A stretch of 38,016 nt of DNA, taken from NCBI GenBank assembly GCA_030429765.1, contig JAUIER010000016.1:1-38016 (forward strand), read 5' to 3'. Made by a program: the position numbers and the translations under genes. This stretch comes from a bacterium (GTDB taxonomy: Bacteria; Omnitrophota; Gorgyraeia; Zapsychrales; Zapsychraceae). The notes beneath the pieces were generated by a model. That model saw nothing but the letters and a program-made list of their open reading frames with translations, was not told the origin of the DNA and made no database searches. Below, in pieces: positions 1,787-38,016 of this stretch (positions are counted from its first letter, which is position 1; the number at the start of each line of letters is the position of its first letter).

Positions 1787-2677
1787 ATGATCATGCGGTA
1801 CAGATATCCACATCTCATCATTTTTATCACCATGACAGTTGTATGTTTCATGTCCACACCGGTGATACAAGCGAATCCCATCGAGGAAATCCCTTCCACC
1901 GGTTCCGCGGCATTGACGATCAAGGCCTGGAACGCCTTTAACGATCAGGACTACGAATCTGCGATTGAGCAGGCGGACGAATGTATCCGTCGTCATTCAG
2001 CCAAGGCAGTACGTATGCAATCAGAGCTGACCGATTATCCACGGGGTTCACACGAGGAAATCCACCGCTATTACGCGCTGAATGATGTAGCCACGGCGCA
2101 TTACATTAAGGCTGAATCATTGTACGCCCTGAGCCGTATTGACGAGGCGGTGGCGATTTATCAGACGATTCTGGACACCTACTCATTTGGTCAGTGTTGG
2201 GATCAGCGCGGTTGGTTCTGGAAACCCGCGGTCGCGGCGCGGGAGAAGTTGTCGATGATCGAGTCCGGTGATTTTTTTGACTACGGCGATTATCGGTCGA
2301 TGACCTTGATGGTGAAGGCCTGGAATGCTCTCGACGAAGAAGATTTTGACGGCGCCCGGCGCACGACGGACAAATGTATTCAACTGTATGAGACTGATGC
2401 CCAACGGATGCAGGCCGAACTGCATAAGAAGCCCAAAGGATCCAATGAATATATTAACTCATTCTGGGCGCTCAACGACGTAGCCACGGCGTATTTTATC
2501 CGGGGCGAGATTTTCCGGTTGCGGCATCAGATGTCTGAGGCTGTTGAGGCCTATCAGGTTGTCATCGATCAGTATCCCTACGCCCAGTGCTGGGATCCGC
2601 GGGGGTGGTTCTGGACGGTGGCCGATGGCGCGCGCGGACGCATTCAGCTGATTGAGGATGGGGTTTTTGATGAGTGA
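1787..2677 (+). CDS. Exported TPR-like protein made of two 131-residue repeats
   Basis: This 296-residue protein has an N-terminal signal segment (hydrophobic residues 10-25, probable cleavage near 29) and is likely periplasmic. The mature part is two tandem copies of one unit: KAWNA at 46 and 177, ALND at 97 and 228, QCWD at 136 and 267, always offset by exactly 131 residues. Each unit has the small/large residue alternation of tetratricopeptide helices and ends with a conserved Q-C-W-D-x-R-G-W-F-W motif. From memory, similar proteins are labelled TPR or 'beta-glucanase precursor', without a known activity. The start at 1787 has an AAGG seven bases upstream; an in-frame ATG at 1793 is an alternative. 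The 3' end overlaps the lipid-kinase gene by eight bases, implying translational coupling. Confidence 0.75.
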   Translation: MIMRYRYPHLIIFITMTVVCFMSTPVIQANPIEEIPSTGSAALTIKAWNAFNDQDYESAIEQADECIRRHSAKAVRMQSELTDYPRGSHEEIHRYYALNDVATAHYIKAESLYALSRIDEAVAIYQTILDTYSFGQCWDQRGWFWKPAVAAREKLSMIESGDFFDYGDYRSMTLMVKAWNALDEEDFDGARRTTDKCIQLYETDAQRMQAELHKKPKGSNEYINSFWALNDVATAYFIRGEIFRLRHQMSEAVEAYQVVIDQYPYAQCWDPRGWFWTVADGARGRIQLIEDGVFDE

Positions 2678-3557
2678 GGGCATCAAGCACCTGCGGGCGG
2701 TGATCAATCCCATGGCCGGTCGTCGGGAACCGATTGTCCAAACGCTGTTCGCGCAGTTCAAGGATGCGCCGTTTCAGTGGGATATTAAGATTTCGCGGGA
2801 CGCGGCGGATATCCCGGACATCATTCAGCAGGCACAAAACGACGGAGTGGATGTGATTGCTGTTTACGGCGGAGACGGAACGATTTTACGCGTGGTACGC
2901 TCGATCCTCGAGACGGATATTCGCCTGGCGATTCTGCCGGGCGGCAGCGGGAATATTCTCGCCAAGACATTAGGTATTCCCCTGAATCTCAAGAAGGCCT
3001 GCCAGTTTTTATGCGGCGAACATCCGCAAACGCAGTCCGTCGATGTGGGCGAGTTCAATGGTGAATATTTTTTAACACGCATCTGCATGGGTTTTGAGGC
3101 CGAGGTGGTGGAGGCCACCGACCGCGTCTGGCAGAACCGGATCGGCATGCTGGCGTACGGTCTGGCAACACTTAAGGCCTTGCGTAAAGTCCGCGTCTCC
3201 GAATATGTGATCACGATCGACGGGCTGGAGTATCGGATCAAAGGATTGGCCTGTTTTGTCGCCAACAGCAGCAATGTCGGGCTGCCGTCAGTGAACCTGT
3301 TGTCGCAGTCCAGTGTCACGGACTCGAAACTGGATGTGATAGTGGTCCCGAGGATCACCCGCTTTTTTTATTTCAAGGCCTGGTTCCGGCATGTGTTTCA
3401 ATCCGATAAGAACGGATTGCTCAAACACTGGTTTGCCGAATCGGTCAAGGTTCAGGCAACACCGGAACAGACCATGCATTGTGACGGCGAGGTGTGTAAA
3501 TCCACGTCGATTGATGCCCGGGTGATTCCGCAGAAATTACATGTACTCGTACCTTAG
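2670..3557 (+). CDS. Diacylglycerol kinase-family (DAGK catalytic domain) lipid kinase
   Basis: This 295-residue cytosolic or membrane-associated kinase belongs to the diacylglycerol/sphingosine-kinase fold (YegS/DgkB-like), which phosphorylates lipids with ATP. The nucleotide site is clear: NPMAG at 13-17, YGGDGT at 66-71 and LPGGSGN at 89-95. The C-terminal beta-sandwich ends with HCDGEV, matching the family. I chose the ATG at 2670, which overlaps the upstream stop region as ATGAGTGA, over the in-frame TTG at 2652 and ATG at 2658, because overlap with coupled translation is common and residue 1 then fits the family's N-terminus. Overlap with the exported TPR-like gene suggests one transcription unit. 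The lipid substrate cannot be told from sequence. Confidence 0.88.
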   Translation: MSEGIKHLRAVINPMAGRREPIVQTLFAQFKDAPFQWDIKISRDAADIPDIIQQAQNDGVDVIAVYGGDGTILRVVRSILETDIRLAILPGGSGNILAKTLGIPLNLKKACQFLCGEHPQTQSVDVGEFNGEYFLTRICMGFEAEVVEATDRVWQNRIGMLAYGLATLKALRKVRVSEYVITIDGLEYRIKGLACFVANSSNVGLPSVNLLSQSSVTDSKLDVIVVPRITRFFYFKAWFRHVFQSDKNGLLKHWFAESVKVQATPEQTMHCDGEVCKSTSIDARVIPQKLHVLVP

Positions 3558-15953: not shown

Positions 15954-18029
15954 ATGTCGGATATCCAATCAGCGGAACAACTCGAACGTCAACATCTGGA
16001 GCATGTCAAGCAGCGGCTTCAGCATGTGCTGGAGGAGATCAATTCGAAGGTGGCGCGTTACGCCAAAGAGATCCGGGAGCAAAAGGAGTATCTTTGGGAA
16101 AACAAGACCGGGATGGACCATGTGGAAAAGATTTCGGTGCGTCAATCGGTCGATCAGTTTGTGTCGACCGCCGATGCCGTCCAGGACAAGGGCAAACGCA
16201 TTCGCAAGCTTTTGGCCTCGCCCTACTTTGGGCGGTTTGATTTTCAGGCGTCAGATGCCAAGGATGTTCGTCAGGTTTACGTCGGTGTGTACGCTTTTTT
16301 TGATGAGGTGGACCAGAAGAACTTGATCCACGACTGGCGCGCACCGATCTCCACGATGTTTTATGATTATGAGACCGGCCCAGCACAATTTGTCGCGCCG
16401 GATGGAGTGGTACACGGTTCAATTCATCTCAAACGTCAATACCGCATCCGCAAAGGTCAAATGGATTTCATGCTCGAAAGCGACTTGAATATCCATGACG
16501 ATGTCCTGCAGAAGGAATTAAGCCTCGCCTCAGACGACAAAATGAAAAACATTGTGGCCACGATTCAGCGTGACCAGAATGCCATCATCCGCAATGAAGC
16601 GTCAGATGTCCTTATCATTCAGGGGGTGGCCGGATCGGGAAAGACGTCGATCGCCCTGCACCGCATCGCGTTCTTACTGTACCGATTTAAGGATAGCATT
16701 CGTTCGAGTGATATCCTGATCATCTCTCCCAATAAAGTGTTCGCGGATTTTATTTCCAATGTCTTGCCGGAGCTCGGTGAAGAAACCATTCCCGAGATGG
16801 GGATTGAACAGCTGGCGACGGAATTGCTCCAACGTGAATTCAAATTTCAGACGTTTTATGAGCAGGTGAGCTATCTGCTGGATAAAAATGATCCAGGCTT
16901 TCGCGATCGTATTAAGTTTAAGGCGTCATTTGATTTTCTGGGACAATTGGATCGATATCTCGATTACGCGGACGAAAACTACTTCAAGTCACATGACCTG
17001 TCCATTAACGGGAAACTCGTCCCCGAATGGTTTATGGCGGAGAAGTTCGCGGCTTACAAACACATGCCGATCGTCCGCCGGCTCGCCAAGATCGCCCGTG
17101 ATATCGAGACCAATGTCGGGATTTATTATCATCATGATGTGACGCCCAAAGAGCGCAGCGAGATCAAGGCGGCTGTTCGAAAGATGTTCCGATTTAGTAC
17201 GCTACGCAGTCTGTACAAAGATTTTTATGCGTGGCTGGAGTGTCCGTCCATGTGCCGTTTTCAAAGGGACGGATCGCTTGAGTATTCGGATGTGTTTCCG
17301 CTGATCTACATGAAAATGCGTTGGGATGGGATCCAGCCGTTCGGGGATGTCAAACATCTGCTGGTCGACGAAATGCAGGATTACACACCGGTGCAGTACG
17401 CCGTGTTGTCACGCCTGTTTGATTGTAAAAAGACGATTCTCGGTGACGCCAATCAGTCGGTGAACCCGTTTAGTTCCTCGTCCGCGTCAGGGATCCGGCA
17501 GGTCTTCACGGAGGCCGATTGTGTTCAGCTCAACAAGAGTTATCGATCAACCTATGAAATTACGGATTTTGCCCAGCAAATTTCATCCAATCAGGATCTG
17601 GAAGTGATTGAACGTCACGGGGAACGGCCGCAGGTGGTACCGCATGCCGACGAGGAACAGGAAATTGAATATATTCGTCGGCTGGCGCTGGACTTTCCGA
17701 CGTCCGGGTATCATTCACTGGGGATCATTTGCCGCACCCAGGAGCAGGCCCGCGCGTTGCAGCAGCGGATTAAGAGTCTGGACTGTAAGGCTTATTTGAT
17801 CTCAGCGACCAGCGAATCATTTATCCAGGGAATTATCGTTTGTACGGCGCATATGTCGAAGGGGCTGGAATTTGATCACGTGATCGTTCCGCAAGTGACG
17901 GATAAAAATTATCATTCCGAGATCGATCGCAGCATGCTTTACGTGGCCTGCACGCGCGCGATGCATCGCCTGACGTTGACGCACACCGGACGGCCATCGC
18001 CGTTATTGCCGGAATTATCGATCAACTGA
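15954..18029 (+). CDS. helD: HelD / UvrD-like superfamily 1 helicase
   Basis: This is a 691-residue SF1 ATPase. A coiled-coil N-terminus (about residues 5-75) precedes the helicase core, as in HelD-type proteins that remodel stalled RNA polymerase in Gram-positive bacteria. Motifs in order: Q/Walker A GVAGSGKTSIALHR (K230), Walker B LLVDEMQDYTPVQY, motif III LGDANQSVNPF, motif IV LNKSYRST, motif V CTAHMSKGLEFDHVIVP, and motif VI LYVACTRAMHRL. The ~190-residue insertion between motifs I and II also fits this family. The start has only a weak ribosome site and lies 11 bases after terC. DNA repair helicase IV activity is the alternative to a transcription role. It is in the same operon as the kinase/phosphatase and TerC genes. 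Confidence 0.87.
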   Translation: MSDIQSAEQLERQHLEHVKQRLQHVLEEINSKVARYAKEIREQKEYLWENKTGMDHVEKISVRQSVDQFVSTADAVQDKGKRIRKLLASPYFGRFDFQASDAKDVRQVYVGVYAFFDEVDQKNLIHDWRAPISTMFYDYETGPAQFVAPDGVVHGSIHLKRQYRIRKGQMDFMLESDLNIHDDVLQKELSLASDDKMKNIVATIQRDQNAIIRNEASDVLIIQGVAGSGKTSIALHRIAFLLYRFKDSIRSSDILIISPNKVFADFISNVLPELGEETIPEMGIEQLATELLQREFKFQTFYEQVSYLLDKNDPGFRDRIKFKASFDFLGQLDRYLDYADENYFKSHDLSINGKLVPEWFMAEKFAAYKHMPIVRRLAKIARDIETNVGIYYHHDVTPKERSEIKAAVRKMFRFSTLRSLYKDFYAWLECPSMCRFQRDGSLEYSDVFPLIYMKMRWDGIQPFGDVKHLLVDEMQDYTPVQYAVLSRLFDCKKTILGDANQSVNPFSSSSASGIRQVFTEADCVQLNKSYRSTYEITDFAQQISSNQDLEVIERHGERPQVVPHADEEQEIEYIRRLALDFPTSGYHSLGIICRTQEQARALQQRIKSLDCKAYLISATSESFIQGIIVCTAHMSKGLEFDHVIVPQVTDKNYHSEIDRSMLYVACTRAMHRLTLTHTGRPSPLLPELSIN

Positions 18030-18043
18030 GTAAGGAGGACAGG

Positions 18044-18241
18044 ATGGAAGACCGACTGATTGAAGTGGAGAAGAAACTTGCCTTTCAGGAAAACACCATT
18101 GAGGATCTCAATCAAATGATTCTGGACCAGAACAAGCGCATCGACGCGCTGAAGGCACAGATCAAGGTGTTAGAGTACCGGATGTCGACCGAAGAATTTG
18201 TCAAACCGATTGAAGATGAAGAACCCCCACCGCATTATTGA
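18044..18241 (+). CDS. slyX: SlyX family small coiled-coil protein
   Basis: This is a 65-residue protein with the SlyX pattern: MEDRLIEVEKKLAFQENTIE, then DLNQMILDQNKRIDALKAQI and a short acidic, proline-rich tail ending EEPPPHY. The whole central part is a predicted two-stranded coiled coil. Biochemical function is not established; despite its name in E. coli it is not a lysis protein. AAGGAGG seven bases upstream marks the start, 14 bases after helD, so it closes the operon. Its stop overlaps the end of the convergent SWIM gene by seven bases (18235-18241). Confidence 0.88.
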   Translation: MEDRLIEVEKKLAFQENTIEDLNQMILDQNKRIDALKAQIKVLEYRMSTEEFVKPIEDEEPPPHY

Positions 18242-18981
18242 CCTTCCAGGATCTCCTGCAGATCAATATCAAAAAGTTCCCCCAGATTCTCATGATCCAG
18301 TCGTTTGATATTTTTGGCGTTTATGCGTTTAAGAATATCGGCGCGTTCGGATTGAATGGCCGACGAGATCAGCTGGTTGATGTCAACGCCGCGCAGCTGC
18401 AGCAGCGCATTGGCATCCGTATCAATCTGAACGCCCAGCGCGAATAAGACCGCCGCCACATGTTTGCAGAGTTTCATACTGTCGGAACAATTACATTCAA
18501 ACTGCGTTTCTTTGGGCGCAGGCAACAGGCCGACCGGACTTTTGGCAAAGATGTCCTGCATATCTTTGGGGAAGTCATGATCGAGGATTTTTTCAAACGC
18601 GTCGAGATGGTCGCGGTACTGTTTCTGCAATTTATTCCAGCGGGTCTTGGCCAAGGGTTTGAATTGGACGGACACTGTGTACGGCTCGACCCGGGAGCCG
18701 AGGACACGCGCGTTCACCTGGTGCCCGTCGATCTTCAGATCGGCCACCGCCTCGCAGCGTAGATATAGTTTGCCCTTTTCAAGCTGCATGTTCTTGGTGG
18801 TAAATTCCCGCAGATTCGCGTTCCAGGCCTTGCCCCACCAATTATTGGCCAACGTCTTGCTCTCGACGGTAAAAGGCTGAATTGCAGGCATCTTCTTCTT
18901 GAGAGTGGCAATCTTGCGCCGGAATTTATTCTTAAGACGATAGTCGAGATTGAGCCGGCTGTGCCAGTAGTTTGAGCGCAT
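18235..18981 (-). CDS. SWIM zinc-finger protein
   Basis: This is a 248-residue protein with a SWIM zinc finger near residues 155-175: FECNCSDSMKLCKHVAAVLFALG, which keeps the C-x-C-x(n)-C-x-H ligand spacing. The N-terminal part contains NNWWGKAWN-like and RV(E/G)...V motifs (WWGKAWNANL; the 'RGR...Y...V' core of bacterial SWIM proteins). SWIM domains bind DNA or protein. Bacterial SWIM proteins are classically encoded beside SNF2-type helicases. This one is 12 bases downstream of such a gene and codirectional, so the two probably form a complex. The start has a weak site (TAGGA, nine bases away). Confidence 0.88.
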   Translation of the reverse strand: MRSNYWHSRLNLDYRLKNKFRRKIATLKKKMPAIQPFTVESKTLANNWWGKAWNANLREFTTKNMQLEKGKLYLRCEAVADLKIDGHQVNARVLGSRVEPYTVSVQFKPLAKTRWNKLQKQYRDHLDAFEKILDHDFPKDMQDIFAKSPVGLLPAPKETQFECNCSDSMKLCKHVAAVLFALGVQIDTDANALLQLRGVDINQLISSAIQSERADILKRINAKNIKRLDHENLGELFDIDLQEILEGQ

Positions 18982-18993
18982 GTGATGAATGTC

Positions 18994-21651
18994 CTATAAG
19001 GTTAACTTAAACATATTGATCAGCGTTTCATCATCCATTTCGGTGATCCAGTTTTCCTGCGATTTTTCAATAATATTCTTGGCCAGGCCGGATTTTTCCT
19101 CGATCAACAGATCGATCTTTTCTTCAATGGTGCCCTGCGTGATAAATTTGTGCACCACCACCTTACGGTTTTGACCGATTCGAAAGGCCCTGTCGGTCGC
19201 CTGATTTTCGATGGCCGGATTCCACCAGCGGTCAAAATGGATCACGTGATTGGCCTCAGTCAGATTGAGTCCGACTCCGCCGGCTTTGAGCGAGAGGATG
19301 AAGTAAGGGATGTACTCTTCGCTCTGAAACCGTTCGATCAGTTTTTTACGCTGGGCGGTCGGGATGCTGCCGTGGAGAATCAGGCCTTCGCGGTTGAAGA
19401 TGGAGCGCAAAAAATCATGCAATGGTTCGATGATGGCCTTGAACTGAGTAAAGATCAGCACCTTTTCCCGTTCCTGAAAAATCACCTCGCAGATTTCGCG
19501 AAGCCGTTGAAACTTGCCGCTGTCATTTTCACTGAAATGCCGGTTGCCGGTGTATTGACTAGGATGATTACAGATCTGCTTGAACTTCATCAGCGATGCG
19601 AGAATAATCCCTTTTTTCTGAATGCCGGTGCTGGATTTGAGCGATTCCTCGGTGGTCTTGATCAGATCTTTATACAACACCACTTGTTTGCGCGACAGAT
19701 GGGCATAGGTCTTCATCTCGATCTTGTCCGGCAGGTCGGTGATGATTTTTGGGTCCGTCTTCAGACGACGCAGCAAATACGGCTGAATAACCCGTTTGAG
19801 CTGCCCGTATTTATTGGGATGATCGTCCAGGCTGCGGGTGTAGCTGGAAAATTCTTTGGAAGATCCCAACAGGCCTGGGTTTGTAAATTCAAAGAGCGAC
19901 CACAAATTAGCCAGACGGTTCTCAATCGGCGTTCCGGTCAGGATGATCCGGTTGAAGGAGGATAGTTTTTTGATGGCCTTGCTTTGCTTGGTGTTGGGAT
20001 TCTTGATGGCCTGGGCCTCGTCGAGAATAACGTAGTACCAGTCGATGTCCTGCAGCGGTTCAAGCTTTTGAATCAGATTATAGGTGGTGATCACCAGATC
20101 ATATTTATCAGTAAGCGGAACGGTATCGATCGTTGTCTGCGTGTCGGGATTGATGCCTGGATGCGCGACAAACACACGCAGTTGGGGAGCGAAGCGCTGA
20201 ATTTCATTTTGCCAGTTGGAAATCAGCGAGGCCGGCAGGATCAGCAGACTCGCCGGATTTTGGCGGTTTTGAACACGGCTTAAGAACGCGAGCAGCTGAA
20301 CCGTCTTGCCCAGTCCCATGTCATCGGCCAGACAGGCGCCGAACTGCAGGGAGTGCAGAAGGTTTAACCAGTTCAAGCCTTCTTGCTGGTATGGTCGCAA
20401 TTGTCCCTTGAATTCGGGCGGGACGTCGGCCGTTTTGATGATATCGGGGTTGCGCAGTTTGTCGAGGGTGGTGCGCAGCCACTCACCTTGTGTGAATTCC
20501 ACGGCAATGTCATCATCCTTATGATCAAGCAGATCGCTGGCGCCGATCTGCAGCCGCATCGCTTCCTTAAACGTAAGCCCCTGTTTTTCCACTTTTTTGG
20601 CCTGTTCAAACATCTTGAGCATCATCGCCAGTTTCTTTCGGTCGATCTTAAGCCATTTACCCTTGACCAGGGCCAATCCTTCCGATTCGTTGAGGATCTG
20701 CTGAATCTCCTGTTCGCTGATCATATCGTCGCCCAGCATCAGCTCGGCGTTAAAGTTCATAATGCTGTCCATGCCCAATAGCGACGGAGCTGTGTCGTGC
20801 ATACTGATGTTGATCTTCATGGATGACGCCTCGCGGTTCCACCAGTCGGGGATCCGGCAGAGAATACCGCAGTTTTCCAGCAGCGTCACTTGCTGCAGAA
20901 ATTCAAAGGCCTGTGTGGAAGTCCACGGCAACGGATGAAATAGTTCTCCCGATTCAAAAAGCCTGGCGATGAGTTCGGATTCACGCGCGGCAAAATGGAT
21001 GGTGCATAATAGATCGAGCAGTTCGCGGTCGTTATGGTCAAACATCTGGATCGCGTCGGACAGGGAAATATGCTGAAAGATTTTTTTGTCCTGTTCGCGC
21101 GGGGTATAGGTGGCCATAAAAGCGAATGGAAATTCTTCGTTGGACGGATTCTCACATAGATGAAAACGCATGCGCCCGACGAGGTGAATGTGCATGCTGT
21201 AGGTCTGGATAAAGCTTTCAACGCTGCCTTCATGGTGGCGGACCTGTTCCTGAAAATACTGATTCAGCTGGTCCCATAACCGGTTCAGGACTTTTTTATT
21301 GAAACGTTCGGATCCCACCATAAACGGTGCCTTCTGGAGCATGTCCATAAGTTCTTCATTGGTCAAGGCAATGGTTACTTGATCACGCAGGTTCTCCAGG
21401 TTAGGTGTGTGACTGAGTTTGTAGGAAAACAGATGCGCGAAGTTGCGGAAGAAATTCAGGGAGGGCGAAAGCGGTACGTCCTCATCGCAAAATCCCAGGA
21501 ACATCAAGCTGGCGATAAATCCATCTTTGGAGCGCTTGTAGATATCCTTCTGGAGCAGGTGAGTGTTCTTGTAAATTTTTCGTTTGAGGGTCGTCCATTC
21601 GAGCTGGACAGTCGTGTCCGGCAAAATCGCGGCGATCAGGTGATTATTCAT
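18994..21651 (-). CDS. SNF2/Swi2-family DEAD/H helicase-like ATPase
   Basis: This is an 885-residue SF2 double-stranded-DNA translocase. The ~420-residue N-terminal region is bacterial-SNF2-associated sequence without a SWIM motif, which is supplied by the downstream gene. Core motifs: LADDMGLGKTVQLLAF (Walker A K449), DEAQAIKN (Walker B), TGTPIENRLANLWSLFEF (motif III), FILSLKAGGVGLNLTEANHVIHFDRWWNPAIE, and ATDRAFRIGQNRKV with the arginine finger (motif VI). It is probably a chromatin/DNA-bound-protein remodeler, repair factor or transcription restart factor; the exact role is unknown. No strong ribosome site precedes the ATG at 21651. It is divergent from recQ, with 176 bases between the starts. 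Confidence 0.9.
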   Translation of the reverse strand: MNNHLIAAILPDTTVQLEWTTLKRKIYKNTHLLQKDIYKRSKDGFIASLMFLGFCDEDVPLSPSLNFFRNFAHLFSYKLSHTPNLENLRDQVTIALTNEELMDMLQKAPFMVGSERFNKKVLNRLWDQLNQYFQEQVRHHEGSVESFIQTYSMHIHLVGRMRFHLCENPSNEEFPFAFMATYTPREQDKKIFQHISLSDAIQMFDHNDRELLDLLCTIHFAARESELIARLFESGELFHPLPWTSTQAFEFLQQVTLLENCGILCRIPDWWNREASSMKINISMHDTAPSLLGMDSIMNFNAELMLGDDMISEQEIQQILNESEGLALVKGKWLKIDRKKLAMMLKMFEQAKKVEKQGLTFKEAMRLQIGASDLLDHKDDDIAVEFTQGEWLRTTLDKLRNPDIIKTADVPPEFKGQLRPYQQEGLNWLNLLHSLQFGACLADDMGLGKTVQLLAFLSRVQNRQNPASLLILPASLISNWQNEIQRFAPQLRVFVAHPGINPDTQTTIDTVPLTDKYDLVITTYNLIQKLEPLQDIDWYYVILDEAQAIKNPNTKQSKAIKKLSSFNRIILTGTPIENRLANLWSLFEFTNPGLLGSSKEFSSYTRSLDDHPNKYGQLKRVIQPYLLRRLKTDPKIITDLPDKIEMKTYAHLSRKQVVLYKDLIKTTEESLKSSTGIQKKGIILASLMKFKQICNHPSQYTGNRHFSENDSGKFQRLREICEVIFQEREKVLIFTQFKAIIEPLHDFLRSIFNREGLILHGSIPTAQRKKLIERFQSEEYIPYFILSLKAGGVGLNLTEANHVIHFDRWWNPAIENQATDRAFRIGQNRKVVVHKFITQGTIEEKIDLLIEEKSGLAKNIIEKSQENWITEMDDETLINMFKLTL

Positions 21652-21746
21652 AACCTACAGGCTATCTCGAGAACGCGAAATATGCAAGGACTAAGTCTTT
21701 AAAGACGGGATAGCCGAAATTCGACGTGAAGAAATTGATTTGTGTG

Positions 21747-21775
21747 TTGCCAAAGGCGGTTTTGTTGGGTAATAT
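21747..21775 (+). promoter_or_regulatory. Strong sigma70-like promoter of recQ
   Basis: TTGCCA (21747-21752), a 17-base spacer and TAATAT (21770-21775) are close to consensus. Transcription would begin near 21782, inside the region that the longest recQ frame would translate, which supports the start at 21828. Confidence 0.65.
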
Positions 21776-21827
21776 GAGGACTCGTTCGAAGCCATATCAA
21801 ATTTCCAACATCAAGGCGGTCCCATTT

Positions 21828-23639
21828 ATGACTCAAGCGGTTCAAGACAAGCTCGGGCTTTTAAAGTCCGTTTTCGGATATACAGAATTTCGTCCGTATC
21901 AGGAGGAGTGTATCGACGCGATCCTGAGTAAACGCGACACGATTATGATCATGCCGACCGGAGGCGGCAAGTCGCTCTGTTATCAGATTCCGGCGATGAT
22001 GTTTGATGGATTAACCATCGTGATTTCACCGCTGATCTCGCTCATGAAAGACCAGGTCAGCCAGCTCAAGGCGGTCGGTGTTGAGGCTGAAGTCCTCAAC
22101 AGTTCGCTGACCTACGAGGAATATGGGGCCAACAAGAACCGGATCCGGTCAGGACGGACCAAAATGGTATTTCTCGCCCCGGAGACTTTATTCAAACCCG
22201 ATATTATGGATTTTTTTCAGGGGTGTCAGATTGATTGCGTGGCTATTGATGAGGCGCATTGCATCTCTGAGTGGGGGCATGATTTTCGGCCGGAGTACCG
22301 GCAGATCAAGAATCTACGTCAGCATTTTTCCAGTGCCGTCTATCTGGCCGTGACGGCGACCGCGACGAAGCGGGTTCAGCGTGACATTATTGCCAACCTG
22401 GGATTACGTGATCCGCTGCAGCTTCAGGCGAGTTTCAACCGGACCAATCTATTTTATGAAGTGATCGACAAAAACCGTTCCACCGATCAGATCCTGGATT
22501 TCCTGGCCAAGAATAAAAATCAAAGCGGAATCATTTATTGTTTTTCCCGTCGACAAGTGGATGTGCTGGCCAGCGACCTCAATGAATTTGGTCACAAGGC
22601 CCTGCCGTATCATGCCGGTTTAACGACGGAGGAACGTCAGCGCAATCAGGAGCTGTTTATCCGTGACGACGTGCCGATCATAGTGGCGACGATCGCCTTT
22701 GGCATGGGGATCAATAAACCCAATGTCCGGTTTGTGATCCATCATGACCTCCCCAAAAATATCGAATCTTATTACCAGGAAACCGGACGGGCCGGACGGG
22801 ACGGGTTACCGGCGCATTGTCTGTTGCTGTACAGTCCGTCAGATATCGGCAAGATCAATTATTTTATCGAACAGAAAGACAGTTTGGACCAGCAGAACGT
22901 AGCCAAAGGTCATCTGAACGCGATTGTGGGGTTTGCCGAAAGCCCGGTGTGCCGGCGGATTCCGTTGATCACTTATTTTGGCGAGCCGTATGCCGTGGAG
23001 AATTGCGGGATGTGTGACACCTGCCGGAATCCCAAAAAAGAGACCGATGATCTCACGGACGAAGTGGTCCAGTTTCTCAAGTGTCTCAGTGAAACGGATG
23101 AGATGTTCGGCGCCCTGCACATTATAAATGTCCTGCGCGGCAGCAAGGCCGATAAGGTCCTGAGTTACGAACATGATTTGTGTGATACGTACGGCGTGGG
23201 AACCAAGTACACCGTCCGTCAGTGGCAGAACATCGTCCGGCAGATGCTCGTGCAAAAGGTCATGGACAAAGAACCCAAGTACGGTGTGCTGACATTGAAC
23301 AGCCGGTCACTGGATATCCTCGCGGGTAAGGCCAAGTTTCAGGGTTTTACTCCACCGTTGGAAAAGCCGCGTTCCCGGTCCCCGCAACGCAATGAAGGAG
23401 GGGGGCTCAGAGGAGGAGCCGCTGACACCGCACTATTTGAGGTTTTGCGCAGCAAGCGTAAAGAGCTGGCCGATCGCCGAGGAGTTCCGCCCTATGTTAT
23501 CTTTTCAGATAAGTCGCTGTTGGATATGTGCGAGCGCCGTCCCAAGAATTTGCGTGAGTTTGCGCAGGTATTCGGCGTCGGTGATCAAAAGCTCAAGAAG
23601 TACGGTGAGATCTTCATCCGACTAATCAAGTCCTCCTAA
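21828..23639 (+). CDS. recQ: ATP-dependent DNA helicase RecQ
   Basis: This 603-residue 3'-5' SF2 helicase acts in recombination and repair. Features in order: FGYTEFRPYQEEC (motif 0), Walker A MPTGGGKSLCYQIP (K48), Walker B DEAHCISEWGHDFRPEY, motif III VTATAT, motifs V and VI VATIAFGMGINKPNVRFVIHHDLP and QETGRAGRDG. The zinc site (four cysteines, CRRIP...CGMCDTC) follows, then the winged-helix RQC region, and an HRDC-type C-terminus (LRSKRKELADRRGVPPYVIF...FAQVFGVGDQKLKKYGEIFI). The frame could start at 21726, but the ATG at 21828 with AAGG upstream gives the standard RecQ N-terminus and leaves the promoter intact. It is divergent from the SNF2 gene. Length fits E. coli RecQ (about 609 aa). 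Confidence 0.93.
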   Translation: MTQAVQDKLGLLKSVFGYTEFRPYQEECIDAILSKRDTIMIMPTGGGKSLCYQIPAMMFDGLTIVISPLISLMKDQVSQLKAVGVEAEVLNSSLTYEEYGANKNRIRSGRTKMVFLAPETLFKPDIMDFFQGCQIDCVAIDEAHCISEWGHDFRPEYRQIKNLRQHFSSAVYLAVTATATKRVQRDIIANLGLRDPLQLQASFNRTNLFYEVIDKNRSTDQILDFLAKNKNQSGIIYCFSRRQVDVLASDLNEFGHKALPYHAGLTTEERQRNQELFIRDDVPIIVATIAFGMGINKPNVRFVIHHDLPKNIESYYQETGRAGRDGLPAHCLLLYSPSDIGKINYFIEQKDSLDQQNVAKGHLNAIVGFAESPVCRRIPLITYFGEPYAVENCGMCDTCRNPKKETDDLTDEVVQFLKCLSETDEMFGALHIINVLRGSKADKVLSYEHDLCDTYGVGTKYTVRQWQNIVRQMLVQKVMDKEPKYGVLTLNSRSLDILAGKAKFQGFTPPLEKPRSRSPQRNEGGGLRGGAADTALFEVLRSKRKELADRRGVPPYVIFSDKSLLDMCERRPKNLREFAQVFGVGDQKLKKYGEIFIRLIKSS

Positions 23640-32452: not shown

Positions 32453-35400
32453 ATGATGAGTCAAACCAAAACTTTCAAACAGCTTAATATATTCCTAAAG
32501 AAATGCATTGCCGGATTTTTGTGTCTGGTGATGTGTCTCACATCGGGCGGTCCGCTGGCCTTTGCGGCCACTGATGTTCAACTTCCCACTCCCGGCGCAT
32601 TGGTCCTTACCACCCGGGATTACAATCTGCCGCAATTGGCTGGTCTGACGGTTGATCCCCATAATCCGCTCAAATTTGATTTTCTGATCAACGCTGGTGA
32701 TCTCAATCCAGATGCCGACGAGCTATCCAAACAGGCTACGGCATTGATCAAATATTTTCTGGTCGCCCTGACAACTCCGGCGGAGAATCTCTGGGTGAAC
32801 CTGTCACCCAACGAACGCGACCGTATCGTGGCCGACGGATTGTCCCGGACAGCCATGGGGCGCGATCTACTCGCGCAGGATTACTTGCTCAAACAGCTGA
32901 CCGCTTCTTTATTGTCACCGGAAGAAGAGACGGGGGCCGAATATTGGCAGCGTCTTTTCAAGAATGTCGATCCAGCCGTGGCAAGCCAAATCTCATCGGA
33001 AACGATTAACAAAATTTGGATCGTCCCCGAGTCGGCGAGCGTGTATGTCAATGACGGACACGCCGTTATCACGGATTCGCGATTAAAGGTCATGTTGGAA
33101 GCGGATTATCTGGCCATGGAGACACATGCCGGAGAGACCAAATCATCGGCGGCGGTCAATGAGGTCAATCTCCAATTGATCCGCGACATCGTGTTGCCGG
33201 TGATTGAAGACGAGGTCAACAACGGCGAGACCTTCGCGAATCTGCGTCAGGTTTATTCGGCCATCATCCTTTCCGCGTGGTTCAAACGTAATCTCCGCGC
33301 CAATATTCTTAATCAAGTTTATGCCGATCAATCCCGTACCGACGGGGTGGAGTCCAACGATCCGGCCGTGAACGAACATATTTACGATCAGTACATGAAG
33401 GCGCTGAAGAAGGGGGTCTACAACCAGGTTCGCGAGGATTTTGACGAGATCACCAAGACAACCGTACCGCGTCATTATTTCTCCGGTGGAGTTGATGTTC
33501 GGCAGATGGACGACGTCTTAAGCGTCGAACAGTCCCAACTTGGACGTCAGGACCTGGAAGATCTGGCCATGCTGGTGGATGCGGTTGATCGTCCCGAGTC
33601 CTTGTACGTGGTCAAGGCCGGACTGGAAGATACTCAGGGGCAGCTTTCGTATCGTCAGACCCAGGTCCGCCGGGCCGACTTATGGCAGGCTGAGGTCGAC
33701 CGGGCGATCCTTTCATCATTAGACGGAATTGTGCGTCATCCGAATTTGGCCTTGGATTCCCAAGAAGCTTTTCGACAATTGCTCAATGGTGTGGACAATG
33801 CAACGGATCGGGCGAAATTAATCGATGATCTGGTCGCCTATGTAATGACACATACACATCTGAAAGCCACGGCCGGTTCTTTCAGCACACCTTCGATCCT
33901 GTCCAAGGAAGTCCGGCGGGTTGTGACCGATTGGGTTAATCAGGAGTCTCAGGTTGAAGCGACCGAAACCGTGGATCGTCGCGTGACGATGCCGCCGGTG
34001 CGTCAAATCAGCGGACTTATGGTGGCAATGTCATTGATGGATGTGGGAGCGGTTATCAATGACAAGGGGGCGATTGACTATGAGGACAGTCTGGCCAAAG
34101 CGCAGGCGTTGTTGCCGGCCCTGGCCCGTGACGGTGTTCGACAATTATATCTGTACGGCGGTCTCTTTGATATGGCGGAGACATCCAAGCAGCTGCATCA
34201 GGTGCCGGATGATGGAGCTCATTATCTAAAAAGTGCGGACGGCCGGGTGATAACGCGCATCGAAGGATATCGTACGAAACGCGCGCGAGTTAGCGGAGCC
34301 GGAACAGATGAGCTTTTGTATGACCAGCACGGCAATAACTTTTCGATTTATCGGATGGATCGCTTTAATCCCAAACTCACGTCAGCTTCCACGGAAGGAT
34401 CAGACGACAGCCGGACGCGGGCGGAATTGCAGGATCTCATTGCGAATGCCAAGGCGCTCGGTATATCCGTTGTCACCGATTTTGTCCCGTGGATGGCGCC
34501 CGATGGCGTTAACGACGAGAATGTGTCGTGGACGCGAACGATTCGTCCGGCCGACCAGTGGGATGAAGCCCGTCAACAGCGATATCGCTCGGTGGCGTCT
34601 AGTCAGCGTGATAAGATTAATCGCCAGTTGCTTGATGATAATCCAGGATACTTCATTTATATCGCCGACGATGGTCTGCCGGTCCTGGTCAATCATTTCA
34701 ATAACGGACACAATATTGACCAAACCTACCTGAACGCCTTCTTACCGCAAGTTCAAGATTACTATATTTCGGCGCTAAAGAATCTTATCGACCTAGGTGT
34801 GGAGGGGGTTCGCGTTGATTTAGCGCACTATCTTCTAGCTAGTCAGTTGACCTATGTATTTGGTTCGCCGGCAACCAAAGCGGATGAACCTTGGCTGCGG
34901 ATTATGCGGGAAGTTAGCGACTATGCCAAGCAACGGCAAGCCGAATTTACGTTCATACTGGAGACTTATTCTCCACAGGATAAGACCAGGCTTCAGTCAA
35001 TTGGACGGGAGGCAGGGGCTCAGGTACAGGTCTATCATAAAGAACTGGAGGATGCCTACCATGCCGTCGTACTAAAAAACGAGTCGGCGCATCGTTTGGC
35101 CCATGTGCTGAATACAGCGGTTGAGTTTATCAAAGATAAAAACGAACCGCGCCGTATGGCTCCGGCGACGTTTGATGATCAGTCGCTGGGAAATATCGGC
35201 GGTCCGGTGCGTGGACTCATGGAAATGCTGCTGGTGCTCTCGGAATTCGGCGTCCCGACGAAGTTCGATCTACGTGAATGGATTCAGCACCGCGGTCACG
35301 TGATCTCGATGGTGGGCGGAATTGCTCCGGATGGAACCATCACACATCCTTATGTCACGGATGAAGAATTTGAAGCGAGGATGACGGACGGTGGGCTCAC

Positions 35401-38016
35401 ACGTATTGTTGATGAGCAACCATGGAATCAATTTATCAACGCGCTTCAACCATTGGTTCCTGAGGGGGCGTCGTTGATCCGGCAGAAACATGCGGATTAT
35501 CCGTGGTACACGCTCGACTATGCGGTGAGACAACAGCGAAATGATTACATTACAGTTGGTTGGGCGAATGGTTCCGATCAACTGAATCTGTATGTACTGA
35601 ATACCCGATCACGGGCCGGGACAGCCGATATTTTGTTGCCGAAAAATTTTGCTGAACGCTGGCAGCAACGGACGGTCCGCGTAGATTTTGCGGAAGGTCA
35701 GCAGGGCCGACTGATCAGTCTTAGTCGTTCGGCATCGGATCGGGACGTACAATTGACGGATGTCTTGAACGGTCAGTTGAAGAAGTCCGACCTAGCCATG
35801 AGCAGTGATGCTGATCGGATTAGCCGCTTGCTCAATGATGTTGAACTGTTACGTGACGAGCTGGCTAAATACCGACAAGAGGAACCTTCGTTGTTGAGTC
35901 GACTTCCAGGTGGTATTGCCGCTTCGATTCAAAGTCTGTTCTTCGCCCCGGCGGATGTTGAGAAATTTATTAACCAAGGGGTGAGCGTTGATGCGCATCG
36001 TAAACTGGGCGCACATCCTATTAAGACGCCGAAAGGCAGCGTCGGGACATATTTCGCCGTTTGGGCGCCGAATGCCGCTGGAGTTCAGGTGGTCGGAGAT
36101 TTCAATGAATGGGAAGGGGCCGAAGATGCCCTGAAATTTAACCCGGAAGTTGGCGTTTGGTATGGGTTTATTGCCGGGGCCGACGTCGGGGATCTGTACA
36201 AGTACCGGATTATTCGGCAGGATGGGCATGTTGTCGATAAGGCGGATCCTTATACTCGTTACAGTGAGTATGCCACAGGTGACGACCCGCTTCGAACCGC
36301 GTCCCGCGTCTGGGATTTGAGTTTTGAATGGAGTGACCGCGAGTGGATGGTGGACCGTAGACATCAACAATCACTGGAGAAGCCGATCAATATCTACGAG
36401 ATGCATATGGGGTCGTGGCGCAAAAAGGACGCGGACGGCGAATGGGTCTGGCTCAACTACAGAGAAATCGCGGATGAGCTGATCCCGTATTTATTAGAGA
36501 ATGGTTTTACACATGTTGAATTGATGCCGCCGTTTGAACATGGATATTATCCGTCATGGGGATATCAGGTGAGTAATTATTTCGCTCCAACCTCGCGATA
36601 CGGTACGCCGCAGGATTTAAAATATCTGATCAACGAGCTTCACAATCATCGCATTGCCGTGTTGATGGATTGGGTTCCCGCGCATTTTCCCAAAGACGCG
36701 CATGGGCTTTCTGAATTTGATGGCACCGAGCTTTACTCGCATCAGGATCCCCGTCAGGGCGAACACCCGGATTGGGGGACGCGAATCTTTAATTACGGTC
36801 GTCATGAAGTCCGCAGTTTTCTGCTGAGTAATGTCATGTACTGGATCCAGGAGTATCATATCGACGGAATCCGGGTGGATGCGGTCAGTTCCATGATTTA
36901 TCTGGATTACGGGCGAGAGGATGGACAATGGATCCCCAATGCCTATGGCGGACGGGAAAATCTGGAGGCCATCGCCTTTCTGCGTGATATGAATCGTTTG
37001 GTCCGTACGGCCTATCCGGGTGTGATCACGATCGCGGAGGAATCGACAGCGTGGCCGAATGTCTCTCGGCCTGTTGAAGATAATGGATTGGGCTTCACTT
37101 ACAAGTGGTCTTTGGGATGGATGCATGACATTCTCGAATATCTGTCAAAAGCGCCCGAGCATCGCAAGTATCATCAGGATCTGCTGACGATGTATCCGCA
37201 TTACGCATTTTCCGAAAATTTTATCCTGCCATTATCCCATGACGAAGTTGTCCATCTGAAAAATTCATTGCTCGGCAAGATGCCGGGGAATGACGATCAG
37301 CGTTTCGCTAATTTACGCCTGTTGTTTGCCTACATGGCGACGATGCCCGGTAAGAAACTCATGTTTATGGGGAACGAGCTGGCCGAGCCGGGGGAATGGA
37401 ATCCTGATGTCAGTCTGTCTTGGCATTTATTAGATGATCCACGGCATCAGGGAATTCAGCGTGCCGTGGCCGAGCTGAATCATTTGGTGTCGTCTGAGCC
37501 GGCGCTGCATGAACTGGATGTGCATCCACGCGGATTTGAGTGGATTGATTTTAACGATGCTGATCAGAACGTGATCAGTTATGTCCGTCGGGGGATCGAT
37601 CCGAATGAGGCCATTATGGTCGTGATCAATTTTTCAGATATGCCCCGTGAAAATTATCGGATTGGTATGCCATGGCAAGACAATTGGCAAGAGATCTTTA
37701 ATTCAAATGCCGCAAAGTATGGCGGTACAGATTCCGATGAGTTGGGTGTTGCTCCCACCGCGGAGCGGCCGATGCATGACCGGCCGGTTTCAGCGGTGTT
37801 TGATCTGCCTCCGCTCTCCGTCAAGATATATAAAGGGAAGGCTCCGGATGCCAAGGACGTTTTTGTTATGCCCAAGGAAGGTTACCGTACCAATGAAGAG
37901 CTGGGGGTTGCGGTTGAACTGGCCCGCCGGAACGTCAGCGGCGGTATGGTGCCGGAAGGCTACCGGAAAGTCAGCGAGGGGGACGAAGTAACGTTGCAGG
38001 TTATTTCGAACCGTCC
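32453..38016 (+). CDS. Giant secreted protein: unassigned N-terminal region, GH13-like module, and CBM48-GH13 branching-enzyme (GlgB-like) module; 3' truncated
   Basis: One uninterrupted frame of 1854 codons runs off the window. Residues 1-38 are a signal peptide (KK, hydrophobic CIAGFLCLVMCLTSG..., LAFA-ATD). Residues ~60-515 match no family I know by function; ~235-350 resemble a region seen, from memory, in giant Omnitrophota proteins. Residues ~515-990 are a GH13-like barrel: D676 (VVTDFVPWM), nucleophile-type D789 (GVRVDLAHY) and acid-type E837 (FILETYS). Residues ~1180-1290 are a CBM48 (YFAVWAPNAAGVQVVGDFNEW). About 1300-1795 is a branching enzyme with nucleophile D1476 (GIRVDAVSS), acid E1529 (IAEEST) and D1597 (LSHDEVV). 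About 60 residues follow before the edge. The start is the first of two ATGs; the ribosome site is weak. Action on alpha-glucan outside the cytoplasm is inferred. Confidence 0.88.
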   Translation, partial: MMSQTKTFKQLNIFLKKCIAGFLCLVMCLTSGGPLAFAATDVQLPTPGALVLTTRDYNLPQLAGLTVDPHNPLKFDFLINAGDLNPDADELSKQATALIKYFLVALTTPAENLWVNLSPNERDRIVADGLSRTAMGRDLLAQDYLLKQLTASLLSPEEETGAEYWQRLFKNVDPAVASQISSETINKIWIVPESASVYVNDGHAVITDSRLKVMLEADYLAMETHAGETKSSAAVNEVNLQLIRDIVLPVIEDEVNNGETFANLRQVYSAIILSAWFKRNLRANILNQVYADQSRTDGVESNDPAVNEHIYDQYMKALKKGVYNQVREDFDEITKTTVPRHYFSGGVDVRQMDDVLSVEQSQLGRQDLEDLAMLVDAVDRPESLYVVKAGLEDTQGQLSYRQTQVRRADLWQAEVDRAILSSLDGIVRHPNLALDSQEAFRQLLNGVDNATDRAKLIDDLVAYVMTHTHLKATAGSFSTPSILSKEVRRVVTDWVNQESQVEATETVDRRVTMPPVRQISGLMVAMSLMDVGAVINDKGAIDYEDSLAKAQALLPALARDGVRQLYLYGGLFDMAETSKQLHQVPDDGAHYLKSADGRVITRIEGYRTKRARVSGAGTDELLYDQHGNNFSIYRMDRFNPKLTSASTEGSDDSRTRAELQDLIANAKALGISVVTDFVPWMAPDGVNDENVSWTRTIRPADQWDEARQQRYRSVASSQRDKINRQLLDDNPGYFIYIADDGLPVLVNHFNNGHNIDQTYLNAFLPQVQDYYISALKNLIDLGVEGVRVDLAHYLLASQLTYVFGSPATKADEPWLRIMREVSDYAKQRQAEFTFILETYSPQDKTRLQSIGREAGAQVQVYHKELEDAYHAVVLKNESAHRLAHVLNTAVEFIKDKNEPRRMAPATFDDQSLGNIGGPVRGLMEMLLVLSEFGVPTKFDLREWIQHRGHVISMVGGIAPDGTITHPYVTDEEFEARMTDGGLTRIVDEQPWNQFINALQPLVPEGASLIRQKHADYPWYTLDYAVRQQRNDYITVGWANGSDQLNLYVLNTRSRAGTADILLPKNFAERWQQRTVRVDFAEGQQGRLISLSRSASDRDVQLTDVLNGQLKKSDLAMSSDADRISRLLNDVELLRDELAKYRQEEPSLLSRLPGGIAASIQSLFFAPADVEKFINQGVSVDAHRKLGAHPIKTPKGSVGTYFAVWAPNAAGVQVVGDFNEWEGAEDALKFNPEVGVWYGFIAGADVGDLYKYRIIRQDGHVVDKADPYTRYSEYATGDDPLRTASRVWDLSFEWSDREWMVDRRHQQSLEKPINIYEMHMGSWRKKDADGEWVWLNYREIADELIPYLLENGFTHVELMPPFEHGYYPSWGYQVSNYFAPTSRYGTPQDLKYLINELHNHRIAVLMDWVPAHFPKDAHGLSEFDGTELYSHQDPRQGEHPDWGTRIFNYGRHEVRSFLLSNVMYWIQEYHIDGIRVDAVSSMIYLDYGREDGQWIPNAYGGRENLEAIAFLRDMNRLVRTAYPGVITIAEESTAWPNVSRPVEDNGLGFTYKWSLGWMHDILEYLSKAPEHRKYHQDLLTMYPHYAFSENFILPLSHDEVVHLKNSLLGKMPGNDDQRFANLRLLFAYMATMPGKKLMFMGNELAEPGEWNPDVSLSWHLLDDPRHQGIQRAVAELNHLVSSEPALHELDVHPRGFEWIDFNDADQNVISYVRRGIDPNEAIMVVINFSDMPRENYRIGMPWQDNWQEIFNSNAAKYGGTDSDELGVAPTAERPMHDRPVSAVFDLPPLSVKIYKGKAPDAKDVFVMPKEGYRTNEELGVAVELARRNVSGGMVPEGYRKVSEGDEVTLQVISNR

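Follow-up and report, generated by a model that had tools for sequence, protein, structure and literature searches.

The window analyzed here is a stretch of 38,016 nucleotides, which corresponds to positions 1–38016 of contig C23 in a genome of 3.31 Mb assembled into 34 contigs (G000). One unbroken reading frame begins on the plus strand at position 32453 and runs over 1,854 codons to the edge of the window at position 38016. A sequence-only reading of the window had described a single open frame of at least this length, and the contig sequence beyond the window showed that the frame proceeds to a TAG stop codon at position 44554 of C23. The complete gene encodes a protein of 4,033 amino acids, less than half of which is contained in the window. 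Inspection of the contig revealed no N anywhere within the gene, and the frame is open across 12 kb. The window also contains three clustered helicase genes at positions 15954–23636, which are UvrD-like, SNF2 with DUF3670 (minus strand) and RecQ, respectively.

Searches against Pfam and NCBIfam recognized one branching enzyme (GlgB), two glycogen synthases (GlgA) and one 4-alpha-glucanotransferase (MalQ, GH77) in the protein, giving the domain order signal peptide, N-domain, weak GH13-like module, GlgB, GlgA, GlgA, P-loop stretch, MalQ and C-tail. The GlgB module is complete (residues 1172 to about 1795, positions 35966–37837, plus strand, as are all features of this gene) and consists of CBM48, Alpha-amylase and Alpha-amylase_C. 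It scored 867.1 bits against PRK05402 (residues 1172–1793; cut-off 741) and 788.5 bits against TIGR01515 (cut-off 463.95), with the CBM48 at residues 1184–1267 (positions 36002–36253). Alignment to a solved GlgB and to relatives showed that the catalytic nucleophile D1476 (codon 36878–36880), the acid/base E1529 (37037–37039) and the third carboxylate D1597 (37241–37243) are all kept. Both the complete branching enzyme with its CBM48 and the exact positions of the three catalytic residues agree with what had been read from the window alone. A further CBM48, the third match in the genome, was found at the C-terminus of a ParA-type ATPase, as an AMPK-type glycogen-binding domain (L007:5183–6424, minus strand).

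The GlgA and MalQ modules are located outside the window. The two GlgA modules (residues about 1936–2470 and about 2580–3116) together scored 640.4 bits against TIGR02095, and singly 325.2 and 321.1 bits, which is borderline to the cut-off of 328.45, with each spanning model positions 2–475 of 477. Both keep the KxGG, SRLxxQK and EPxG motifs, including K1951/K2593 and E2354/E3005. Each is preceded by a starch-binding-like module, the first at residues about 1830–1935 (positions 37940–38016, cut by the end of the window; weak match to CBM_20, E=0.06) and the second, also weak, at residues about 2480–2575. The GlgA modules are 51% identical and the starch-binding-like modules 41% identical to each other, so that the two were duplicated as a unit. 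Between the second GlgA and MalQ lies a P-loop stretch (residues about 3145–3310) with the Walker A motif GNYASGKS at residues 3158–3165 and no confident family. The MalQ module (residues 3337–3830) scored 543 bits against PF02446 and 336 bits against malQ (cut-off 205.65), and its catalytic residues D3632, E3679 and D3734 are kept. The C-tail occupies residues 3956–4015.

Upstream of GlgB, a linker without a family match (residues 347–509, positions 33491–33979) leads into residues 510–1130 (positions 33980–35842), which are at best GH13-like. This module scored 13.7 bits against PF00128 (E=0.037), below the cut-off of 22, and it gave profile matches to cyclodextrin glycosyltransferases with E=0.015. 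The putative triad D789, E837 and D908 or D909 is also kept in the one close homologue of the module. Structure prediction gave a model with pLDDT 75 for the N-domain and an unusable one for the GH13-like module, which was built from a two-sequence alignment (pLDDT 45). The fold matches of this low-confidence model were to barrels in general, including a branching enzyme (E 6.9e-4), and are not decisive. Thus, of the two GH13-type barrels originally proposed, the GlgB barrel stands, while the first is only weakly backed. A homologue with 48% identity was found in a genome of the same family (G188) as the sole passenger of a 1,214-aa protein with the N-domain, and no glycogen-enzyme module was present near this gene in the 20 kb read.

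The N-domain, which follows directly after the signal peptide, comprises about 310 residues (residues about 40–346, positions 32570–33490) and closes with SGG (residues 344–346, positions 33482–33490) in a motif, (P)R[KH]YFSGG, that is nearly invariant in the alignments and in a motif survey. It makes up part of a region of about 450 residues that had been left unassigned in the sequence-only reading and for which no known family was found; this part turned out to be the hallmark of a protein family and is the main discovery of this study. Searches with the N-domain gave no match to PDB sequences, no confident match to Pfam and no relation to defence systems in PADLOC, and its AlphaFold2 model (pLDDT 75) had no meaningful match among PDB folds (best E 5.6e-3, TM 0.14). 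Profile searches and the stretches read, from which all counts for the genome derive, identified 25 matches in G000, where the domain heads large frames that start with a signal-peptide-like segment. It was present in 70 of the 237 genomes sampled from the phylum, with most copies in the order to which the window belongs. Among the matches listed for GTDB species genomes it occurred at more than 500 places, essentially all in Omnitrophota. The 79 loci that were kept are also from Omnitrophota, except for a few labelled Planctomycetales, Bacteroidales or "bacterium". In all of the 121 frames read, the domain was single and N-terminal, with divergence right after (P)RKYFSGG.

Complete members of the family end in GGIDLNP...LQI...GFVPVIINITPxxNLPLLLG. 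A model trained on half of these tails recovered all 43 held-out tails, and of 93 complete frames with the N-domain, 87 carried the C-tail. Among the six exceptions, three (L105, L127 and L148) are frames from one genome that are broken by masked N, with the tail in the other half of the locus. Conversely, of 11 frames with only a tail, eight run off the 5' edge of the stretch, and the other three are the broken frames just named. Two genomes sampled in both searches (G107 and G206) had neither an N-domain match nor a tail. Based on the recovery of held-out tails, the pairing in complete frames and the joint absence from these two genomes, we regard the architecture, hereafter called bracketed, as a tested regularity. 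The giant protein displays all of its features: a signal peptide and an N-domain ending in YFSGG, a C-tail and a cysteine-poor mature chain. The N-domain/C-tail proteins constitute a large Omnitrophota family that apparently has not been described before. No account of the brackets was found among the open PMC papers searched, so that priority is uncertain. The protein had initially been viewed as a single odd fusion of two GH13 modules, and this view has to be replaced with that of one member of a large family, the passengers of which are mostly non-carbohydrate enzymes.

The signal peptide proposed from the window (residues 1–39, positions 32453–32569) is visible by eye as MMSQTKTFKQLNIFLKKCIAGFLCLVMCLTSGGPLAFA-ATD, with a KK n-region, a hydrophobic core and A-F-A before ATD. 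An equivalent hydrophobic segment was found in 112 of 114 relatives, with an AxA-like site in 89 of these. The only cysteines of the protein, at residues 18, 24 and 28, are all inside the signal peptide, leaving none in residues 40–4033. The bracketed proteins of the genome contain 9 cysteines in 49,899 amino acids (0.018%), compared to 1.04–1.18% in open reading frames that are not exported, and the corresponding values in other genomes are 0.077% and 1.25%. Tryptophan, likewise a rare residue, accounts for about 1.1%. The near-invariant cysteine of the GlgA motif EPCGL is present in 13 of 13 free GlgAs that were read, including that of G000 itself, and is replaced with serine in both GlgA modules of the giant protein. 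The free GlgB, GH57 and MalQ of the same genome contain 5, 8 and 5 cysteines (0.8–1.7%). These three cytoplasmic enzymes are encoded in a row on contig C1 (L006:4248–9104 and L072:810–12002), immediately followed by a bracketed protein of 3,731 aa with HTH domains and a match to a Kdo/WaaP-type kinase.

We had considered that the bracketed proteins might be uniquely cysteine-poor among exported proteins, since a first comparison group contained 0.8%. This idea was dropped because a cleaner set of other signal-peptide proteins from the same genome was also poor (about 18 cysteines in 7,526 amino acids, one outlier with 126 cysteines left out). The low content is therefore taken as a mark of export only and not of injection, and supports life outside the cytoplasm, nothing further. 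A protein of about 700 aa encoded at L007:2085–4289 (minus strand) contains about 126 cysteines, and in it a TM-like segment is followed by repeats rich in Cys and Gly. The other exported proteins of this genome have almost no cysteine.

These observations bear on whether the protein could be a glycogen megasynthase of the cytoplasm, in which the hydrophobic N-terminus either fails to direct export or tethers the protein at the cytoplasmic side, with the fusion serving only to channel substrate. ADP-glucose is made in the cytoplasm, where GlgC is present, and the passenger types of the family are normally cytoplasmic. Zero cysteines over 4,000 residues, the serine in the GlgA motif, the signal peptides of the relatives and the free cytoplasmic GlgA, GlgB and MalQ that the genome already has all argue against it, and we consider a cytoplasmic location very improbable. 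By comparison, the predicted export of the protein and its role in building or remodelling alpha-glucan, both foreseen in the sequence-only reading, are well supported by the signal peptide, the lack of cysteines after it, the intact active sites and the addition of two GlgAs and MalQ. We infer that Sec carries the protein over the inner membrane. A search of the genome with GspD for the export route yielded at least eight genes resembling secretins, all of them below the cut-off, and G000 showed no exporter that is specific to the brackets. The secretin-like genes (L210–L213 and other places) are candidates for the outer-membrane step.

The passengers between the brackets are diverse. In G000 they include glutamate dehydrogenase, a PLP enzyme with an ARMT1 phosphatase, a PPDK/PEP synthase-like enzyme, AceK with a 2-hydroxyacid dehydrogenase, malate synthase, CofD, a histidine phosphatase, HTH domains with a Kdo/WaaP-type kinase, and an acyltransferase, and several others have no family. 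The 66 passengers from other genomes include PGI, PGK, phosphoglucomutase, hexokinase, FBPase, TIM, GAPDH, enolase, PPDK, UTP-glucose-1-phosphate uridylyltransferase, acyl-CoA dehydrogenase and NAPRTase. Most are mutually unrelated, and forced alignments gave mean column identities of 7% and 16%. In several passengers of relatives, the PROSITE-type signature patterns of PGK, PGI, enolase and PPDK are intact. The AceK protein (L076:650–8032) is bracketed and carries both domains of isocitrate dehydrogenase kinase/phosphatase, a regulator of central metabolism, here with a signal peptide. The gene directly downstream of the giant gene (L004:12593–15871, C23:44593–47871) also encodes a bracketed protein, of 1,093 aa, with a signal peptide, N-domain, C-tail and no cysteine. 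It has a weak glycogen-synthase-like match to GT5 (PF08323, E=5.9e-9) and may take part in the same process as a divergent partner.

For GlgA and PGK, the two enzymes checked, the bracketed copy is additional to a normal free copy, so that the exported copies are extras. G000 keeps separate free GlgA, GlgB and GlgC. Nearly all genomes of the order encode PGK as an ordinary protein of about 400 aa, and 7 of 36 genomes additionally have it inside frames of 1,129–8,222 aa. Five of these frames (in G218, G188, G115, G128 and G110) are bracketed, as determined by comparing their contig and frame lengths with those from the N-domain and tail searches.

No orthologue of the exact fusion was found among 53 sampled relatives from the order, but related arrangements were. 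G159 and G219 each encode a protein of 1,184 aa with the N-domain, one GlgA and the tail. In a genome of the same genus (G258), MalQ followed by GlgB, the latter 52% identical to that of the giant protein, is contained in an N-free frame that extends over at least 16,007 aa and includes a single cysteine (L191–L194 and L202; G258:C67:33453–81473). The 5' end of this frame is beyond the contig and it matches neither the N-domain nor the C-tail model, so that we regard it as a related giant rather than a demonstrated member of the bracketed family. In G244, a GlgA with 50% identity belongs to a frame that is at least 12,197 aa long. In small unrooted trees, the bracketed or giant-borne GlgAs formed one clade on a long branch (support 1.000) and the two GlgBs of this kind likewise grouped together (support 0.998). 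It thus seems that an old enzyme lineage has been shuffled among large proteins, of which the giant protein is, by its domain content, the most complete glycogen-making family member among those examined.

Such relatives also bear on whether unrelated genes have been wrongly joined by assembly or binning. The genome is of the metagenome type with multiple contigs, and another apparent giant on contig C19, a frame of 24,583 aa with a C-tail, was rejected as an artefact because it spans 72,000 bases of masked N (C19:8001–80000). The giant gene itself is free of N and open over 12 kb, both of its end brackets match the rest of the family, and related fusions exist elsewhere, such as the N-free MalQ-GlgB frame of the same genus. 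The probability that the fusion is an artefact is accordingly close to negligible.

Taken together, the giant protein is probably an exported multi-enzyme member of the bracketed Omnitrophota family, with the building and trimming of branched alpha-glucan outside the cytoplasm as its function. According to this model, the Sec machinery would move the protein through the inner membrane, and the N-domain and C-tail would then direct its sorting, translocation or anchoring, perhaps with a cut close to SGG. Using nucleotide sugar, the GlgA modules would lengthen alpha-1,4 chains, into which GlgB would put alpha-1,6 branches, while redistribution of the chains would fall to MalQ together with the GH13-like module. 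The least certain step is the workplace, which may be a prey or host cell to which the bacterium is attached, or a space shared between cells, as in the exported glycogen synthesis of Chlamydia. Nucleotide sugars are normally absent from the periplasm and the medium. The likeliest workplace would therefore be one that offers the ADP- or UDP-glucose required by GlgA and the ATP, NAD(P) or PEP required by sister proteins. Delivery to or into another cell is favoured, given the Chlamydia precedent and the predator or symbiont lifestyle proposed for many Omnitrophota. A search for the ATP/ADP translocase family, a marker of host dependence, gave no match, but it was run without a positive control and is uninformative.

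The main rival is remodelling in the periplasm or at the surface, in which captured maltodextrin or glycogen would be rearranged by GlgB, MalQ and the GH13-like module without nucleotide sugar, and the GlgAs would only bind glucan. GlgB and MalQ are cofactor-independent and intact, starch-binding-like modules (weak matches) flank the GlgAs, and nucleotide sugar outside the cytoplasm would be unexpected. On the other hand, the conservation of KxGG, SRLxxQK and EPxG in both GlgAs would be odd for pure binding modules, and remodelling leaves the need of sister passengers such as kinases and dehydrogenases for cytosolic cofactors unexplained. We consider this alternative unlikely, but the one to be taken most seriously.

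It is about as unlikely, in our estimate, that the product is a polyprotein which, after export, is processed by a protease at SGG and within the linkers, thereby freeing GlgB, the two GlgAs and MalQ. The nearly invariant YFSGG at the end of the N-domain with divergence thereafter is consistent with such processing, as is the recurrence of single modules (N-domain with the GH13-like module in G188, N-domain with GlgA in G159 and G219). However, no protease and no repeated internal cleavage site were identified, and SGG may simply represent the end of the fold. Processing of this kind is compatible with, and not opposed to, an exported glucan-building protein.

Finally, the catalytic folds could bind sugars without catalysis, as pseudo-enzymes in an adhesin or coat. 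Adhesion and coat roles of giant open reading frames were discussed by Seymour et al. 2023 (PMC10066038), and GlgA motifs are altered in some bracketed or giant-borne relatives (KRAG and SRGG in G159 and G180). In contrast, every catalytic residue tested in the giant protein is kept, and the PGK, PGI, enolase and PPDK passengers of relatives keep their signature motifs, which makes this explanation improbable. A caveat for catalysis by the giant protein is that the only GlgA-GlgB fusion studied, from Waddlia, had a branching domain that was reported to be inactive (PMC7935935).

More broadly, and with less than even confidence, we suggest that Omnitrophota export a second, cysteine-poor set of central-carbon enzymes by means of a dedicated N-domain/C-tail system. 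With these enzymes they would operate metabolism, or seize control of it, beyond the cytoplasm of their own cells, and the most probable site would be prey or host cells. This set would comprise hexokinase, PGI, FBPase, TIM, GAPDH, PGK, enolase, PPDK, UDP-glucose pyrophosphorylase, phosphoglucomutase, glycogen synthase, branching enzyme and amylomaltase, along with regulators such as AceK. The brackets would then offer a handle on the functionally opaque giants of the phylum, since the exported set could be listed in any genome. They would also point to a candidate new system for secretion or delivery and allow a direct test of how presumed predators and symbionts exploit other cells.

Among the glycogen-enzyme fusions known to us, the giant protein would be the largest by far. 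Its individual modules resemble canonical GlgB (CBM48-GH13), GlgA (GT5) and MalQ (GH77) in being full-length with intact active sites, but differ in being fused, predicted to be exported and free of cysteine. In polymorphic toxin and effector systems, a constant trafficking part is combined with many different enzymatic passengers. The bracketed family shares this principle, but its passengers are central, bracketed on both sides and mostly metabolic, and toxin domains are not the rule.

The closest functional parallel is Chlamydia trachomatis, in which GlgA, GlgB, GlgX, GlgP and MalQ are type-III-secreted (Gehre et al. 2016 PMC4829429; Lu et al. 2013 PMC3722199), demonstrating that exported glycogen enzymes can work where the host supplies nucleotide sugar (PMC4829429). 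Both organisms belong to the PVC group, and in both a set that includes GlgA, GlgB and MalQ is exported to synthesize glycogen at another site, although this is a prediction for the protein described here, which would be the second case in the group of glycogen synthesis relocated from the cytoplasm. However, the chlamydial enzymes are separate proteins with type III secretion signals, whereas the Omnitrophota protein is a single chain of 4,033 aa that has the N-domain and C-tail together with a Sec-type signal peptide, and no host or inclusion is known for it. The Sec-type signal peptide suggests a route other than type III. The GlgA-GlgB fusion of Waddliaceae, termed exceptional across all domains of life (PMC7935935), also combines glycogen synthase and branching enzyme in one chain in the PVC group. 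The giant protein differs from it in the reverse order, with GlgB first, a duplicated GlgA, the added MalQ and GH13-like module, the signal peptide and the brackets. Giant open reading frames have been reported from Omnitrophota, many of which are proposed to be predators or symbionts; these frames, such as that for a protein of 39,678 aa in 'Ca. Velamenicoccus archaeovorus', are reported to have few annotated domains, obscure functions and poor conservation (Seymour et al. 2023 PMC10066038). The protein described here is likewise very large, from the same phylum and proposed to be extracellular, but unlike the reported giants it carries a common N-domain and C-tail around recognizable metabolic enzymes.
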